Assembly: GCA_030729925.1 (NCBI GenBank)
Contig: JANQWK010000093.1
Location: 1 to 64,000, forward strand
Length of the DNA stretch: 64,000 bases
Direction: 5' to 3'
Source: Saprospiraceae bacterium
GTDB lineage: Bacteria > Bacteroidota > Bacteroidia > Chitinophagales > Saprospiraceae
Positions 35,142 through 42,493 of this stretch are shown piece after piece (position 1 is the first letter of the stretch; each line of letters begins with the position of its first letter). The notes beneath the pieces are model-generated. The model was not told where the DNA came from and did no database searches. It saw only the letters and a list, made by a program, of their open reading frames with translations. The position numbers were made by a program, and so were the translations under genes.

Positions 35142-38100
35142 TTAAAGATTATTGTTGTTTTTTACCGGAATACGAGGTTTCTCTTCTTCCATTTCGAGCA
35201 GGGAGCTACTGTTGATGTTCAGATTGAGTCTGCTGGCCGCTTTCATTTGGTTTTCCAAGCGCAGCAGCTTCGAACGGGCTTCCGAAATAATGGCCGGATC
35301 TTCGGTGTAATTTTCCAGGAGTGCTTCGAGCGCAGCTCTGGCATTGGTTAAGTCGCCGGATTCGGCTAAAATATCCGACAACAGAATAACGCTTTTGGCT
35401 ACCCAGCGAGGGTAGGCAGAACTTTCCGTATTGGAGTTGATGCAAAGGGACTTGGCCGTTTCGAGATCCCGACGCAGGTAATAGATATAGGCTTTCAGGT
35501 AACGCGCTTCAGCAGTTTGTTCGTTGTCGCTGAGTCGGATCACTTCGTTCATCAAAAATAGCGCCTCATCGTAATTCTTCTGGTCGAATGCAATTTTGCC
35601 CATGAAAAAGCTGGCGGTAGCCTTGTGGATAGGCAAAGCGTTGGGGTGCATACTCACCTTATTGGCCAGGGTAGTCACGGCTCCGGTATTGCCGCTGCGG
35701 TAGGCACTTTGCATGGCACCCAGTTGCGCATCAAAACGCTGATCTTCACTGGTTGCTGCCGTTTCGAGTTGCTGGTACAGCGAATAGGCCGTTTCAAAGT
35801 CCTCTTCGTGGTTGTAGGCAATCACCGCGGCTTTTTGCAGGGCTTTCTGGTAATACCTGCTGGCTCCTTTTTGCGATACGGCAATGTAATCGGGCAGCGC
35901 TTCGCTGTATTCTTGCATGACGGCATGACTTTCCCCCCGGAAATAGGTGGCTTCCAGGGCAAATCGGCCGTTGGGGAATTTGCGCAGGTATTCGCTGAAA
36001 GACAATACCGCTCGCTCGTAGTTGCCGTTTTCAAATTGGGTTTCTGCTACCTGGTAACTGATGGAGTCCTTGGCAAAGTTGTCCACCCGATAGCCGGGGA
36101 TGGTCTCGAGGAAACTAAAATAAGCGTCGGCCTGTCCGAGATCATCTACATAGATTTCTTCCAGGGCAGCCAGCGCCAGTCCTGATTCCTCAGTATCCGG
36201 GTTGTTGGAAAAGACCTGCTTGTAATAGGTAATGGCCTTTTCCAGGTCGCCGAGGTTGTATTGAATCAAGCCCAGTTTCATAAGGGCAGGATTCATAAGA
36301 TCGGTGCTGGTTCGGTAAGATTCGATTAAACGCAGCAGGGGGGGAACGGCCTTGGATAATTGCCCGATTTCCTGGTAGGTAGCACCCAGTGCAAAAAGGG
36401 CGTCGTCGGTATAAGTGGATTGCGGGAAGCTGCTGATGAGTTGCTCCAAGGCTAGAATTTTCTCGGTAACCCTGCCCCGAAGACCCTCAATCAATGCTTT
36501 TTGGAAATAGGCATACTCATAACCGGTATAGCGCCGGGCAATTGCTTCTTCGTAAAAACCTATAGATTCGTTGTATTTGTTTTGCTTAAACAGACAGTCT
36601 CCGGCGCGCAGGGTAGCATCCCCGAGCATGGTACCCGTAATTTCGGGATTGCGTAAAAAGCTGGCATTGCGTTTGATGCCATCCACGGTTTCTCTGAAAT
36701 AAGTGTAGGCCGGGGAATAGTTTTCAAGCTTGAGGTAATTGTAACCTTGAAGGTAATTACCGGTAAACAGCGATGCTTCGTCCGGGAGGTTGCTGACCGT
36801 CTTAGCCAGGGTCAGAAATTCATTGGCATACCGGATACTTTTGTTGTAGTCGGCCTTCAAATGGGCAATATCGGCAAGCCAATAGGTGGCCAAGGCTTTG
36901 GTCCCCGCATCTATGGGGTATTGAAGGGACAACTCAAAGTGCTTACCCGCTTCGTCGTATTTGCTTTCCTGATACAGTTGCAGTCCCCTCAGATAGACCA
37001 CCTGCTGGTAACTCCGTTGAATGGCAGGCGTTTTTACGGGTAATTGTTCAATGACTTCCATGGCCTGCTTATAATTGCGATAGCTCAGAAATATCTTGGC
37101 CATCAAGTCCTGCGCTTCACCATAATAGGGCGAAGCAGGCTGTAGTTCCTGAAGGGAGGCAATGGCTTCTGTGGGGTCGTTGAGTTCGTAGGACAGTTTT
37201 GCGTAACTAAACAGGGCATCTTCCCGGATTATCGGGTCGTAATCCAAGCGCTTGGCATAGCCAAAAGCAGAACGTGCAGAGGTCTTATCTCCGATTTTGA
37301 GGTAGCAGTCAGCCAGGTAATACATGGCAAACTGGCCCGTTGGGGTGGTAATCCCGCTGAGTTCCCTGAGGTTGCGAATGGCATCCGGATATTTTCCGGC
37401 CAGGTACTGGACGTACCCCAGTTGGTAAAATTCCTCCTCGCGCAGGGTGCCACTGAGGTTGGCATAGGTTTCGAGATAGGGAAGGGCTTGGTCGAAGGCT
37501 TTTAGTTCAAAGTAAGACTGACCCACCAATTGGTTGATTTCTTTGCTGTTTTTTAGCCCTTTTTGTTGCAATTTCGGAGTGGCATAGGTGATCAGGTTTT
37601 GGTATTGCGCTTGCGCAAAATAAATCTGCGCCAGATAGTAAGGAACGTAAGGGCTGTATCGCGGCGAGGCTTCTACCGCTGCAAGCGCCGCAGCGGCTTC
37701 CGGATATTTGCCTTCAAAAAAATAACAGAGCCCCAGGTAGTAATTGGTGGCAGCGTAGTTGTCGTTGCGCACAGCTCGTACCTGTATCAACAAATCCCGT
37801 GCTTTGTCAAACTGCTTGCTGACAAAATAGGAATATCCCAGTCTAAACTTGAGGTTCGCCCTTTGCTCCTGACTGAGGTTGCCCTTGTCTGCTTCGGTGT
37901 AATTGGCGATCGCCTCCGTATAGTTTTTTTCTTGGAAATAGTAGTCGGCCAAGTCAATCAATGCTTCCTGTGCCAAAGGGTCGGGCTGGTTGGAGCGGAT
38001 AAAGTCCTGGATGAGTTTTTCTCCTTCGGGTAGGCCCAATTGGACAGCACAGCGAGCCAAGTAAAGTTGGGCTTTTTTTCGCAGGAGGTCATTGTCCTGC

Positions 38101-38294
38101 TCAGGATGAAGATCCAGCATTTGATCCAGGCGGGCAAACTCCTCGCGCGCCTGCGCGATCAATCCTGCATCATAATGCGACAAACCTTTTTCAAAGAGCT
38201 GTCCGGCAGCCGTAAATACTGCCGTTTGCTGGCTGTATAGGGGAGTATGCCAGCTATAAAATAGAAAAACAAGGAGTGCAATAGGGTACTTCAT
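35142..38294 (-). CDS. Large periplasmic TPR protein
   Basis: A 1050-residue protein with signal peptide MKYPIALLVFLFYSW ending near LYSQQ, followed almost entirely by tetratricopeptide-like helical pairs (for example FRLGYSYFVSKQFDKARDLL and YYLADCYLKIGDKTSARSAF). The architecture resembles a periplasmic scaffold of the type often found next to outer-membrane proteins in Bacteroidota. The ATG at 38294 is chosen; the longer frame to 38369 would place 25 polar residues before the signal. It lies 9 bases upstream of the barrel gene. A large hairpin (38322-38371) sits in the DNA just upstream of the start. Confidence 0.8.
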   Translation of the reverse strand: MKYPIALLVFLFYSWHTPLYSQQTAVFTAAGQLFEKGLSHYDAGLIAQAREEFARLDQMLDLHPEQDNDLLRKKAQLYLARCAVQLGLPEGEKLIQDFIRSNQPDPLAQEALIDLADYYFQEKNYTEAIANYTEADKGNLSQEQRANLKFRLGYSYFVSKQFDKARDLLIQVRAVRNDNYAATNYYLGLCYFFEGKYPEAAAALAAVEASPRYSPYVPYYLAQIYFAQAQYQNLITYATPKLQQKGLKNSKEINQLVGQSYFELKAFDQALPYLETYANLSGTLREEEFYQLGYVQYLAGKYPDAIRNLRELSGITTPTGQFAMYYLADCYLKIGDKTSARSAFGYAKRLDYDPIIREDALFSYAKLSYELNDPTEAIASLQELQPASPYYGEAQDLMAKIFLSYRNYKQAMEVIEQLPVKTPAIQRSYQQVVYLRGLQLYQESKYDEAGKHFELSLQYPIDAGTKALATYWLADIAHLKADYNKSIRYANEFLTLAKTVSNLPDEASLFTGNYLQGYNYLKLENYSPAYTYFRETVDGIKRNASFLRNPEITGTMLGDATLRAGDCLFKQNKYNESIGFYEEAIARRYTGYEYAYFQKALIEGLRGRVTEKILALEQLISSFPQSTYTDDALFALGATYQEIGQLSKAVPPLLRLIESYRTSTDLMNPALMKLGLIQYNLGDLEKAITYYKQVFSNNPDTEESGLALAALEEIYVDDLGQADAYFSFLETIPGYRVDNFAKDSISYQVAETQFENGNYERAVLSFSEYLRKFPNGRFALEATYFRGESHAVMQEYSEALPDYIAVSQKGASRYYQKALQKAAVIAYNHEEDFETAYSLYQQLETAATSEDQRFDAQLGAMQSAYRSGNTGAVTTLANKVSMHPNALPIHKATASFFMGKIAFDQKNYDEALFLMNEVIRLSDNEQTAEARYLKAYIYYLRRDLETAKSLCINSNTESSAYPRWVAKSVILLSDILAESGDLTNARAALEALLENYTEDPAIISEARSKLLRLENQMKAASRLNLNINSSSLLEMEEEKPRIPVKNNNNL

Positions 38295-38321
38295 GCCGGA
38301 CACATTTAGAGCGTACATAAT

Positions 38322-38371
38322 AATTGGATAAGGGTCGGATGCCATAATAAATTGCCGACCCTGTTCCAATT
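38322..38371. repeat. Large interrupted inverted repeat between rocD and the TPR gene
   Basis: AATTGGA (38322-38328) and AGGGTCGG (38331-38338) pair exactly with CCGACCCT (38355-38362) and TCCAATT (38365-38371), separated by TA/GT mismatches. This gives a 15-pair stem around a 16-base loop. Transcribed on the minus strand it lies 27 bases before the TPR start codon. There is no T-run on the minus side, so it looks more like a leader structure or a protein-binding site than a classic terminator. Confidence 0.65.
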
Positions 38372-38390: not shown

Positions 38391-39629
38391 TTACATCCCC
38401 TTAATGGTATTGATGATGATGGCGAGACTTTCTCGCAACTGTTCTTTATTGATGACCAAGGGTGGTGCAAAACGGATGATGTTCCCGTGGGTGGGCTTGG
38501 CCAGCAGGCCGTTTTCGGCCAGTTTAAGACAAATGTTCCAGGCGGTTTTGCTGTCCGGGGTGTCGTTGATGACAATGGCGTTGAGCAGACCTTTGCCCCT
38601 GACTTCCGCAACCAGCGGGCTTTTCCCGATCAGGTTGTCTCTGATCTCCTGACGGAACATTTCTCCCATAATCCGGGCATTTTCTGCAAGGTTTTCATTG
38701 ACGACTACCTCCAACGCAGCTTGGGCTACTGCACAGGCCAGCGGGTTGCCTCCGAAAGTAGATCCGTGCTGGCCGGGCTTGATGCACAACATGACTTCGT
38801 CGCTGGTCAGAATGGCCGATACCGGCAGGACGCCGCCACTGAGGGCTTTGCCTAAAATAAGGATATCAGGTTTTACGTTTTCATGGTCACAACAGGTCAT
38901 TTTTCCGGTACGGGCAATGCCAGTCTGGACTTCGTCCGCAATAAACAATACCCGGTGCTGGCTGCACAGCTCCCTTACTCGAGTTAGGTATCCTTCATCC
39001 GGTACGACAACACCCGCCTCGCCCTGGATAGGTTCTACCATAAACCCGGCTACGTTCGGATCCTGCAGCGCTTTTTCCAACGCAGTGATGTCGTTGTAGG
39101 GGATGATGTCATACCCCGGCATGTAGGGGCCAAATCCAACTTTACTCTCCGGATCCGTGGAGGAGGAAATAGCCGCAAGCGTTCTTCCCCAGAAATTGCC
39201 GCCGGCAAAAATGATACGGGCTTGATTTTCAGGGATCCCCTTTATTTCATAGCCCCATTTTCGACACAGCTTGATGGCAGTTTCACCACCCTCAACACCG
39301 GTATTCATGGGCAGGACGCGGTCGTACCCAAACAAGCGGGTGATGAATTGTTCGTAAGGACCAAGTTTGTCGTTGTAAAACGCCCGCGAGGTAAGGGTGA
39401 GGGTTTGGGCTTGTGAAGTGAGCGCCTGGATGATATGCGGATGGCAGTGTCCTTGGTTAACAGCCGAATAAGCAGAAAGGAAGTCGAAATATTGCTTGCC
39501 GTCCACATCCCACACATAAACGCCTTGTCCTTTGCTGAGGACAACAGGGAGGGGGTGGTAGTTGTGTGCACCGTGATCGGCTTCCAGTTGCATGAGCTGA
39601 GCGGCGCTCAGTTGGGTAATTTGTTCCAT
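38391..39629 (-). CDS. rocD: Ornithine--oxo-acid aminotransferase
   Basis: A 412-residue class III (omega) aminotransferase that converts ornithine to glutamate-5-semialdehyde in arginine and proline metabolism. Visible: [28 protein letters not shown] near the N terminus (only its first part is a fixed signature), [34 protein letters not shown], the Schiff-base Lys in [17 protein letters not shown], and [14 protein letters not shown]. The combination [11 protein letters not shown] and NTGVEGGE is typical of ornithine rather than acetylornithine enzymes. A nicotinamidase-fold gene lies 12 bases upstream on the same strand. Confidence 0.92.
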
Positions 39630-39641
39630 GTTGATCTCGAT

Positions 39642-40256
39642 TTAAGCTGGGTTTAATGCTTTGGTTAGTATGATGGTTGCACCTGCAGCTTCCAGTTGGC
39701 GCAGGGTTTCAGATTGCTGTTCGGGTTGTAGCGGGAAGCAGGCGTCCCGCAGGACAATGGTTTTTAGGCCGAGTTGAAGCGCATCGAGTGCCGTATGCAG
39801 GATTTCATACTCCAGGGGCATGCCCATGAGATAGAGGCCGCTTATGGATTGGGCACTGAGGTATTCAGACAGCCCGGAAGGTTCCTGGTGCTCGCTGTTC
39901 CAGAAAGCACTGTAGCTCTCTCCAGAGGGGTCGGTGCCCTTCTGGCAGGTAAAGGTAATCCTTTCGGTGTTCAATCCCGGCGCAATTTCCGCGCCAAAAC
40001 TGCCCTTTACACAGTGCATATCCCACAACAAACGAGGCTGATCCGCAATTGGTATGGTTTGCCCGGGTCTTCTCCACAAATGATTAGCGGCGAAGCTGCT
40101 GTGGTCAGCCGGATGCTGGTCCAGACATAAAACGACCTCCGAGAACAGCGGCATATAGGTATTGGCCAATGGCACAGCTCGTCCGGAATCGGGTATGGAT
40201 AGGCTGCCTCCCGGCAAAAAATCTATCTGAAATCCAAGCAGCAGCAACGCTTTCAT
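39642..40256 (-). CDS. Nicotinamidase-fold protein lacking catalytic Asp and Cys
   Basis: A 204-residue isochorismatase-superfamily protein that aligns along its length with nicotinamidase PncA. The metal-site residues are kept (DQHPADH: Asp46, His48, His52) and so is the catalytic Lys106 in CQKGTDP. The catalytic Asp, normally in the VDxQxDF motif, is Gly8 here (LLGFQIDF), and the nucleophilic Cys, normally in DYCV, is Glu151 (LEYEILHTALDALQLG). A nicotinamidase reaction is therefore not expected. The ATG at 40256 is chosen as it starts the core strand; upstream frame continues without a family match. It lies 12 bases upstream of rocD. A metal-binding or regulatory role is only a guess. Confidence 0.75.
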   Translation of the reverse strand: MKALLLLGFQIDFLPGGSLSIPDSGRAVPLANTYMPLFSEVVLCLDQHPADHSSFAANHLWRRPGQTIPIADQPRLLWDMHCVKGSFGAEIAPGLNTERITFTCQKGTDPSGESYSAFWNSEHQEPSGLSEYLSAQSISGLYLMGMPLEYEILHTALDALQLGLKTIVLRDACFPLQPEQQSETLRQLEAAGATIILTKALNPA

Positions 40257-40275: not shown

Positions 40276-40380
40276 GGCAAACGCGAGCAGGTTTTGCCGA
40301 CAGGCAGGTGGCCGAAGCGATAGGAATCTTGAGAAAAAAAATATAATTTGCGCATATTATTTCACTTAAGTATTCCGATT

Positions 40381-41064
40381 TTGATCAGTGCCAGAAATAT
40401 TCAGAAGTCTTACGGAAATTTAAAGGTGTTGAAAGGGGTAGATCTCGACATTGGAGCTGCTGAGATCGTTTCCATTGTCGGGAAGTCAGGTGCGGGAAAA
40501 AGTACACTGCTACATATCCTGGGAACCTTGGATCGCCCGGATTCGGGCTCCCTTCGCATTGGGGATGCCGAGACGAGTCAACTCAGCGGCGACAAACTGG
40601 CCGATTTCAGAAACCAGCATATCGGATTTGTGTTTCAGTTTCACCACCTGCTGCCTGAGTTTACGGCATTGGAAAATGTGTGTATTCCTGCTTGGATCCG
40701 GCAAACGCCGGAGCAGGAGGCCCGCAAACGGGCATTGGAACTGCTCGATTACCTGGGACTTTCGGAAAGGGTCAGCCACAAGCCTACCCAGCTTTCCGGC
40801 GGAGAACAGCAGCGCGTGGCCATAGCAAGGGCATTGATCAACCGACCGGCTGTGATTTTTGCGGACGAGCCCACCGGTAATCTGGATTCTGCCAGTTCTC
40901 AGGATTTGCACCAATTGCTGTTTCGCCTGCGCACCGATTTTGGACAGACTTTTGTGATCGTGACCCACAACAACGAACTGGCAGGCATGAGCGACCGTGT
41001 GCTTGTGATGAAAGATGGGATTTTGATCAACGATCAAGCAAAAAGTTATGTCCACGGGGCCTGA
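40381..41064 (+). CDS. lolD: ABC transporter ATPase, LolD-like
   Basis: A 227-residue ATPase of the LolD/MacB class, which drives lipoprotein release from the inner membrane or related transport. Walker A is GKSGAGKST (34-42), the signature is [15 protein letters not shown], Walker B is VIFADEPTG, and the H-loop is FVIVTHN. The start is a TTG at 40381 that gives the family-typical [12 protein letters not shown]; an in-frame TTG at 40348 would add an unrelated stretch. No membrane subunit (LolC/E) lies beside it, and its last 17 bases overlap the DUF389 gene. The role as LolD is by family; other MacB-type exporters look alike. Confidence 0.8.
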
Positions 41065-42493
41065 ATGGGAAAAACCGGCGGCACGGATCAAGGTGCTGTT
41101 CAAGGATTTGCTGCAAGCCGTAGGGGCTTGGTTCGGTGATTTTTTTGATCTCCAACAGGGGGTGGATCGGGAGGGTACCCTGGTAGCGATCCGATCCAAT
41201 AAAAAAATGATCGGCACCAATGCCTGGATGCTGCTTTGCTCTACCCTGATTGCCAGTCTCGGACTGGATCTGAATTCTCCCGCTGTGATTATTGGTGCAA
41301 TGCTGATTTCTCCTCTGATGTCGCCTATCCTGGGTATTGGTCTGGGGGTTGGTACCAACGATCGGGAGGCACTGACGTCTTCGCTGCGCCATTTTGCGAT
41401 AGCGATATTGGTTTCCCTGCTGACCAGTACTTTGTATTTTACCATAACGCCTCTGGGCGATTATACCGCCGAAATACGGGCGCGTACAGCACCCACTTTG
41501 CTGGATGGCCTGGTGGCTATTTTTGGGGGCTTGGCCGGTATGATTTCGATCAGCCGAAAGGACAAGGGCAATGCCCTTCCGGGAGTAGCTATTGCGACCG
41601 CTCTGATGCCGCCTTTGTGTGTGACAGGCTATTTTATTGCCAATGGGCGCTGGAATTTGGCGCTGAATCCTTTTTACCTGTTTTTCCTGAACTCTTTTTT
41701 TATTGCCCTTTCCGCTTATATCATCATCCGGCTGCTGGATTTCCCGATGCGCACTCCGGTTGATCCCGCAGAGGCACGCCGCTCGCGAATGATGCTGTAC
41801 TTTTTTAGTCTATTGGTGATCGTGCCCAGTGGCAAGATTTTATATGATTTGTATGAAGAACGCCAGGAGGAGCTTCGGATAGAGGCTTTTATTGATGCGT
41901 TTTTTGGGGTGGACTCTCCGACGCGATGTATTGATTACGAACTTATTGAGCGGGATTCGAGCAAGCAGTTGGTGTTGGAGCTGCTCGGCGCTTCTGTGCC
42001 CCAGGATTCGATGGAGTTTTACTTTTCTGCCCTGCAAAGCTTTGATCTGCCCGGTATTTCCCTCTCCCTGATCCAGGATTCGGATGTGGAGCTGGAGAAG
42101 CTCAAAAGCCTGGAAACGGAAATTTCTTCCTTGGGCTCTCTGGCTGAGCGCCTGGTGAGCGTAAACCAGGCCAAGACTTCCCAGGATTTGAAAGTGGAAC
42201 GACTACAGCGGCTGGTAGATAGCTTGATGCGGGCTCAGCTGCCTTTTGAGGATATCGTTCGGGAAACAAAAATTGTATTTCCCGAACTTAATAGTCTGGC
42301 TTTCGCAAAAGCCGAGCGTTCTGATTTCCAAGGCACCATTTCTTATATGCCGGTTTTTCTGGTAGAATGGATCCCGGGGAAAAGCAGAACCCAACGCCGA
42401 AAGGAGGAGACGATGTTGGCTGATTTTCTGAAAATACGAACAGGATTGGATTCTATTCAGCTTATTCCTTTTACCGAATCATTGAAACGTTGA
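41048..42493 (+). CDS. DUF389 polytopic membrane protein
   Basis: A 481-residue protein. The core matches DUF389: [41 protein letters not shown], SIGxx-like [32 protein letters not shown], each cited in part. About six TM helices cover residues 55-265, followed by a long soluble C-terminal region with a coiled-coil-like stretch ([16 protein letters not shown], then [15 protein letters not shown]). The function of the family is not established. Its ATG lies inside the last 17 bases of the LolD-like gene and its stop overlaps the photolyase-related ATG (TGATG at 42491-42495), so the three are translationally coupled. Confidence 0.88.

Follow-up and report, generated by a model that had tools for sequence, protein, structure and literature searches.

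A gene in the window, the whole stretch of 64,000 nucleotides of Saprospiraceae DNA analysed here, encodes a protein with the complete fold of a nicotinamidase (PncA) in which two of the three catalytic residues are replaced. It is best explained as the ordinary nicotinamidase gene of the organism's ancestors, dead and in its old chromosomal slot. Sequence comparisons across the family suggest that catalytic death followed the loss of PncB, the downstream enzyme, and that the protein was probably kept for a non-catalytic function, perhaps borne by its lid loop.

The window protein

The open reading frame, of 204 codons, runs from 40256 down to 39642 on the minus strand (Table 1), at the coordinates given, without a strand, by an earlier sequence-only reading. 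That reading had also proposed a nicotinamidase fold, which is borne out by an isochorismatase-type match to Pfam PF00857 (57.8 bits, cut-off 27) and by the AF2 model (mean pLDDT 95.7), whose nearest solved structure is the PncA of Acinetobacter baumannii, 2wt9 (Z 31.5, rmsd 1.6, 203 residues aligned). A phmmer search of the PDB returned seven sequences, each a nicotinamidase according to its name or family assignment, with 2wt9 as the best match (5.4e-36, residues 3-178). In common with 2wt9 and the NCBIfam family NF008623, the protein has the whole fold, the metal ligands, the lysine and a long lid loop with FAANH, and the SYSAF and TALDALQLG stretches picked out from the sequence are present. 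Unlike them, it has Gly and Glu for the Asp and Cys and Pro for the cis-alanine, and it falls below the NF008623 cut-off (145.4 bits against 174; an intact relative, L119, scores 280 bits).

Residues were mapped against 2wt9, 1ilw/1im5 and E. coli PncA. The Asp-Lys-Cys triad reads Gly8, Lys106 and Glu151, whereas the predicted metal ligands Asp46, His48 and His81 are present, so that the loss of the catalytic Asp and Cys with retention of the metal site stands as first described. Residue 149 is Glu where Asp is conserved, and Phe13, Trp78 and Tyr115 are retained; Pro147 presumably occupies the place of the cis-peptide alanine, this position and those of Phe13 and Trp78 being assumed from an alignment with M. 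tuberculosis PncA. For the latter enzyme, the published account describes a triad of Cys138, Asp8 and Lys96, the metal ligands Asp49, His51, His57 and His71, a cis peptide at Ile133-Ala134, a ring pocket lined by Trp68, Phe13 and His137, a loop between two metal histidines that forms a flap over the cavity, and undetectable pyrazinamidase activity in the mutants Cys138Ala, Lys96Gln and Asp49Gly (PMC3025910). By analogy with these mutants, the Gly-Lys-Glu arrangement would not be expected to support the known mechanism, and the window protein is very probably dead as a nicotinamidase. Its catalytic residues have been lost from a sequence otherwise of its family, as in a pseudoenzyme.

Homologues with Gly and Glu at these sites were sought and found in genus g49 (genera are given by our handles, g1 being that of the window) and in a sister species, a Saprospiraceae MAG (JALQTV010000234.1; L003/L032) whose protein is 60% identical to that of the window and whose gene also lies directly upstream of rocD. 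As the sister species carries the same changes, sequencing error is excluded. No second PncA-like protein was found in the window genome (99.8% complete); its one other PncA match (E 0.094) contains two stops and was rejected as a nicotinamidase.

Table 1. Features of the window, and loci of PncB remnants in other genomes
Feature	Location	Strand	Basis
Degenerate PncA (pseudo-nicotinamidase), 204 aa	39642..40256	-	ORF, profile, structure matches
Gly8 (codon GGA), place of catalytic Asp	40233..40235	-	alignment to nicotinamidases
Asp46-x-His48, metal ligands retained	40113..40121	-	alignment
Lid loop, residues 55-66, FAANHLWRRPGQ	40059..40094	-	1st or 2nd most conserved stretch among dead copies
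His81, metal ligand retained	40014..40016	-	alignment
Lys106, catalytic Lys retained	39939..39941	-	alignment
Glu151 (codon GAA), place of nucleophilic Cys	39804..39806	-	alignment to nicotinamidases
rocD, ornithine aminotransferase, ancestral neighbour	38391..39629	-	TIGR01885, synteny
TPR-repeat protein, conserved block member	35142..38369	-	synteny
LolD-like ABC ATPase, conserved block member, inverted relative to pncA	40348..41064	+	synteny
DUF389 protein, conserved block member, inverted	41048..42493	+	synteny
PncB remnant, G002	L308:1279-2559		
PncB remnant, G132	L309:1441-1911		
Other PncB remnants	L318, L319, L310, L320, L321		

Degenerate PncA, its slot and PncB across the family

A search of 398 Saprospiraceae genomes with an eight-row PncA profile (A1) gave matches in 180 at 1e-5. 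Of these, 164 were classified after their copies had been fetched and aligned, and the 16 with weak matches only stand, unclassified, among the 234 genomes counted as having none. Intact Asp/Lys/Cys PncA is present in 109 genomes from 43 genera (including G009, counted as intact with its N-terminus lying off the contig), and degenerate copies only in 55 genomes from 17 genera. Two of the 109, both in genus g29, combine the two forms, a dead PncA (GVL/GTL) and a shorter intact one, and also have PncB (L075/L077 in G029, L076/L207 in G171). The degenerate triads are GKE in g1 and g49, NKD in g30 and g132, DKS in g32, DTS in g125, several N-initial types in g96 and g99, GM with a further residue in g94, D with R or K in g22, DR in g105 and g128, and CQC in g2, with NLA also among the types. 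This variation between genera therefore argues against a single new active site. In g32 (L070, L071, L072) Asp and Lys are intact and Ser takes the place of Cys; these copies could still be active, as a serine variant.

In the window, exactly 12 bases separate the pncA-like stop from the ATG of rocD, as had been read from the sequence, and rocD itself scores 670 bits against TIGR01885 (cut-off 378). Just downstream of the DUF389 gene lies a deoxyribodipyrimidine photolyase-related protein (DPRP, PF04244; 42490-44046, plus strand). The block of lolD, DUF389, pncA, rocD and the TPR gene is found, whole or in part, in many genera with intact PncA, and part of it surrounds the dead copies of g1 (with lolD and DUF389 turned round), g49, g125, g2 and g32. 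Gaps to rocD, taken from tblastn ends and thus displaced from the start codon by at least one base, are 20-231 bases downstream of intact pncA, 3-48 bases for the dead copies of g1, g49, g125 and g2, and 335 and 974 bases in two g32 genomes. In a second context pncB lies near pncA; 18 intact genera show it, and it was not found among degenerate genera within the fetched flanks.

The sequence-only reading had tied the loss of the catalytic residues to a new role, such as metal or ligand sensing, in arginine and ornithine use. That a metal or nicotinamide sensor should control ornithine use via rocD is now very improbable: tight linkage, equally close in g49, and the retained pocket and metal ligands of the window protein would fit such a sensor, but PncA with its triad intact immediately precedes rocD in 21 of the 109 canonical genomes (12 of 43 genera), with identical gene order, a finding of the kind that the earlier reading had said would count against it, and rocD, found downstream of dead copies in 5 of the 17 degenerate-only genera, was not found in the fetched flanks of the other 12. 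The shared slot shows the rocD link to be long-standing and not confined to the dead form, and it was rejected as a clue to the new role. Of the earlier proposal, the loss of catalytic residues from a protein that was kept holds; the link to arginine and ornithine does not.

A clearer correlate of the dead form is PncB, counted in all 398 genomes as the PF04095 core domain of the non-NadV types (TIGR01513-like and TIGR01514-like). It is present in 103 of the 109 genomes with intact PncA, as against 5 of the 55 with dead PncA only and 3 of the 234 others. Among PF04095 proteins, the weak-scoring type is the nicotinate phosphoribosyltransferase TIGR01513 (confirmed in one example) and the short TIGR01514 type occurs in 3 genomes; the strong-scoring type matches NF006629, whose NCBI model name is nicotinate phosphoribosyltransferase, and is here called NadV-like. 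The six genomes with intact PncA and no PncB are 55-88% complete, and one of them (G209) carries a fragment of PncB where a contig ends. At the level of genera, PncB is found in at least one genome of all 43 intact genera and is absent from the degenerate genomes of 16 of the 17 degenerate-only genera; g17, g58 and g105 each hold species with intact PncA and PncB and species with dead PncA and no PncB. All five genomes with dead PncA only and PncB belong to g22 (L097, L098, L099, L144, L149), in which the dead PncA is accompanied by a full PncB and a NadV-like gene. The window genome, with no match to PF04095 or TIGR01513, differs in this from the setting of an active PncA.

The same association was met beyond the family. 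Among 295 genomes of the class, A1 matches 23 at 1e-15, two of them family members; 20 of the 21 outside have Asp/Lys/Cys, and the remaining one (G437, L295) has DTY. When PF04095 was subsequently searched, it was found in 20 of the 21, G437 being the sole genome without it. A search of 78 sampled genomes found NadA in 69, among them that of the window, and NAD can thus be made de novo. On the explanation favoured here, PncB would have been lost first, leaving nicotinate without a user and the hydrolysis of nicotinamide useless, after which the catalytic residues of PncA would have been free to change.

PncB itself has left traces. Open frames matching only part of it occur in 7 of the 55 degenerate genomes (G002, G132, G218, G139, G221, G329, G353; Table 1) and, where read, consist either of just the N-terminal part or of both terminal parts, lacking the core domain. 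An NrtR-like gene, with an NrtR_WHD domain identified in G002, lies beside the remnant in five (G002, G132, G218, G221, G139), and one pair of remnants gives dN/dS of 0.076/0.338 = 0.225. In the window genome, which has an nrtR gene of its own, no remnant was found by match to TIGR01513.

Selection and the lid loop

Dead pncA is under purifying selection in genus g49, where the 15 pairs among six Gly/Lys/Glu species, which share history and include one copy without its N-terminus, give pairwise NG86 dN/dS values of 0.083-0.171. For rocD of the same species the range is 0.021-0.076, and for intact pncA in genera g130, g21 and g113 it is 0.013-0.145. Other dead pairs give 0.173 (g125), 0.053 and 0.124 (g96) and 0.107-0.262 (g22, highest at dS 0.015). 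In g1, represented by two species, dN is 0.36 and dS is saturated.

These values bear on a slow-decay account, in which PncA, useless after the loss of PncB, is a relic whose catalytic site drifted first, with no function left and the gene to vanish. The g49 values, near those of most intact pairs (0.07-0.15), speak against decay, as do the occurrence of dead copies in many species per genus (12 genomes of g94, 7 of g96, 6 of g49) and the presence of both Arg62 and Phe55 in all 56 dead copies; an unlikely account, it would nonetheless suit the long branches and varied catalytic residues, the in-frame stops in two copies (G130 and G262), the persistence of PncB as core-less remnants in seven genomes and the absence of PncA from most PncB-less genomes of the family. 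Indeed, 231 of the 281 family genomes with neither PncB nor intact PncA have no classified copy; the role can thus be done without, and the dead copies may be in the course of being lost.

Conservation in the dead copies centres on the lid. Among 12-residue windows, residues 55-66 rank 65th in conservation in 100 intact copies (38 genera), whose best windows begin around 112 and 45, but 2nd in the 33 dead copies with both histidines kept and 1st in the 23 that have lost His48, His81 or both (0.79 against a mean of 0.48). These counts leave out G002 (CQC) and, from 110 intact copies, ten with short lids; the search profile contains the lid stretch and so favours lid-keeping copies, which may inflate the conservation. 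Besides Arg62 and Phe55, Ala56 is present in 54 and His59 in 53 of the 56 dead copies; of the 100 intact copies, 81 have Arg62, 76 Trp61 and 72 Gln66. These alignments suggest a shift of selection in dead copies, away from the active site and onto the lid. The metal site was rejected as the common kept feature, His48 or His81 having been lost in 23 of the 56, with the lid loop kept, and metal sensing, as earlier suggested, is accordingly not singled out.

A further alternative is that the metal, lysine and pocket serve another reaction needing neither Asp nor Cys. PhzD and EntB are isochorismatase-like hydrolases of the same superfamily that, like the window protein, are without the nucleophilic Cys; they keep the Asp and act on isochorismate-type substrates. 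A PhzD-type D38A mutant structure is among the fold matches of the window model, and the Asp mutated there is one on which these members rely for catalysis, whereas the window protein has Gly8 in its place. The retained metal ligands, Lys106, Phe13, Trp78 and Tyr115, together with the existence of such Cys-less relatives, would be compatible with a repurposed enzyme, which is nevertheless quite improbable given that the three catalytic places vary by genus and that a metal histidine is so often lost.

Retention of dead PncA for a non-catalytic role thus remains the reading we favour, as probably correct. The protein would be retained for a second task, dependent on the fold and especially on the lid loop FAANHxWRxPGQ; most likely it would bind a partner protein or a ligand non-catalytically. 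That this loop carries the retained role is put forward tentatively. The role probably pre-exists in active enzymes, because most active copies carry the same loop, and would have been exposed repeatedly and independently.

Origin of the dead copies and wider meaning

For an rpoB tree 80 genomes were searched, of which 75 matched; five fragmentary sequences were left out, and G171, on an aberrant branch, was dropped from the resulting 70 to give 69 rows. Mapped onto this tree, the degenerate-only state shows 14 changes and the lack of PncB 13. Of eight pairs that are independent on supported branches, seven agree, none is opposite and one shows no difference (sign test p 0.016), and forcing all degenerate genomes into one clade is 595 log units worse and rejected (p-AU 0.0005). 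Vertical descent would imply 11 changes of state at Glu149 and 5 at Pro147, repeated changes that would amount to convergence. Catalytic death of PncA has thus apparently been repeated many times in the family.

The tree of PncA itself conflicts with this. A first tree had 100 rows; a later one, of 70, took one row per canonical genus and up to three per degenerate genus, drew two outgroup rows from the order and left out 16 long or fragmentary copies and eight site columns. It groups most dead copies on long branches (19 rows, 97/78), with all except that of G002 on one side of a branch (support 47/86). This grouping could reflect the long branches, or else an old paralogue or transfer. Under the second alternative the dead form would have been inherited or spread, as an ancient paralogue or a transferred gene, in place of repeated death in situ; we regard it as somewhat unlikely. 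The clustering of g1, g30, g32, g132 and g29 (99/97) and the two copies of g29 would be expected of it, and placing g1 with its rpoB neighbour g24 is borderline in an AU test (p-AU 0.054); against it, the same kind of test does not reject g49 with g19 (p-AU 0.296), the dead copies of g1, g49, g125, g2 and g32 sit in the slot of the intact gene, and g17, g58 and g105 mix both kinds of species. It concerns origin only and is compatible with the function proposed here.

Pseudoenzymes are often paralogues beside an active sister. In general, as set out in a published review, a catalytic motif is lost and the protein kept (PMC10211241), and the window PncA conforms to this. It departs from the usual case in that a single copy has died in its original slot, apparently on repeated occasions and in line with the loss of a downstream enzyme. 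A literature search that was thin on subscription journals found no nicotinamidase described as a pseudoenzyme and, among the matches listed (titles and abstract starts), no second role for a bacterial nicotinamidase.

More speculatively, PncA throughout the family, active or dead, may possess a lid-borne non-enzymatic function that is laid bare with each loss of PncB as selection shifts to the lid; since some genera have retained a core-less PncB next to the NAD regulator NrtR, a dead salvage pathway may likewise persist as a binding or regulatory module. One bacterial family thus offers many apparently independent deaths of a sole-copy enzyme, linked with the disappearance of the following step in the pathway and pointing to one loop. 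With so many conversions, and intact relatives in the same slot, what keeps a dead enzyme becomes directly testable. Annotating such genes as nicotinamidases would wrongly credit their genomes with NAD salvage.
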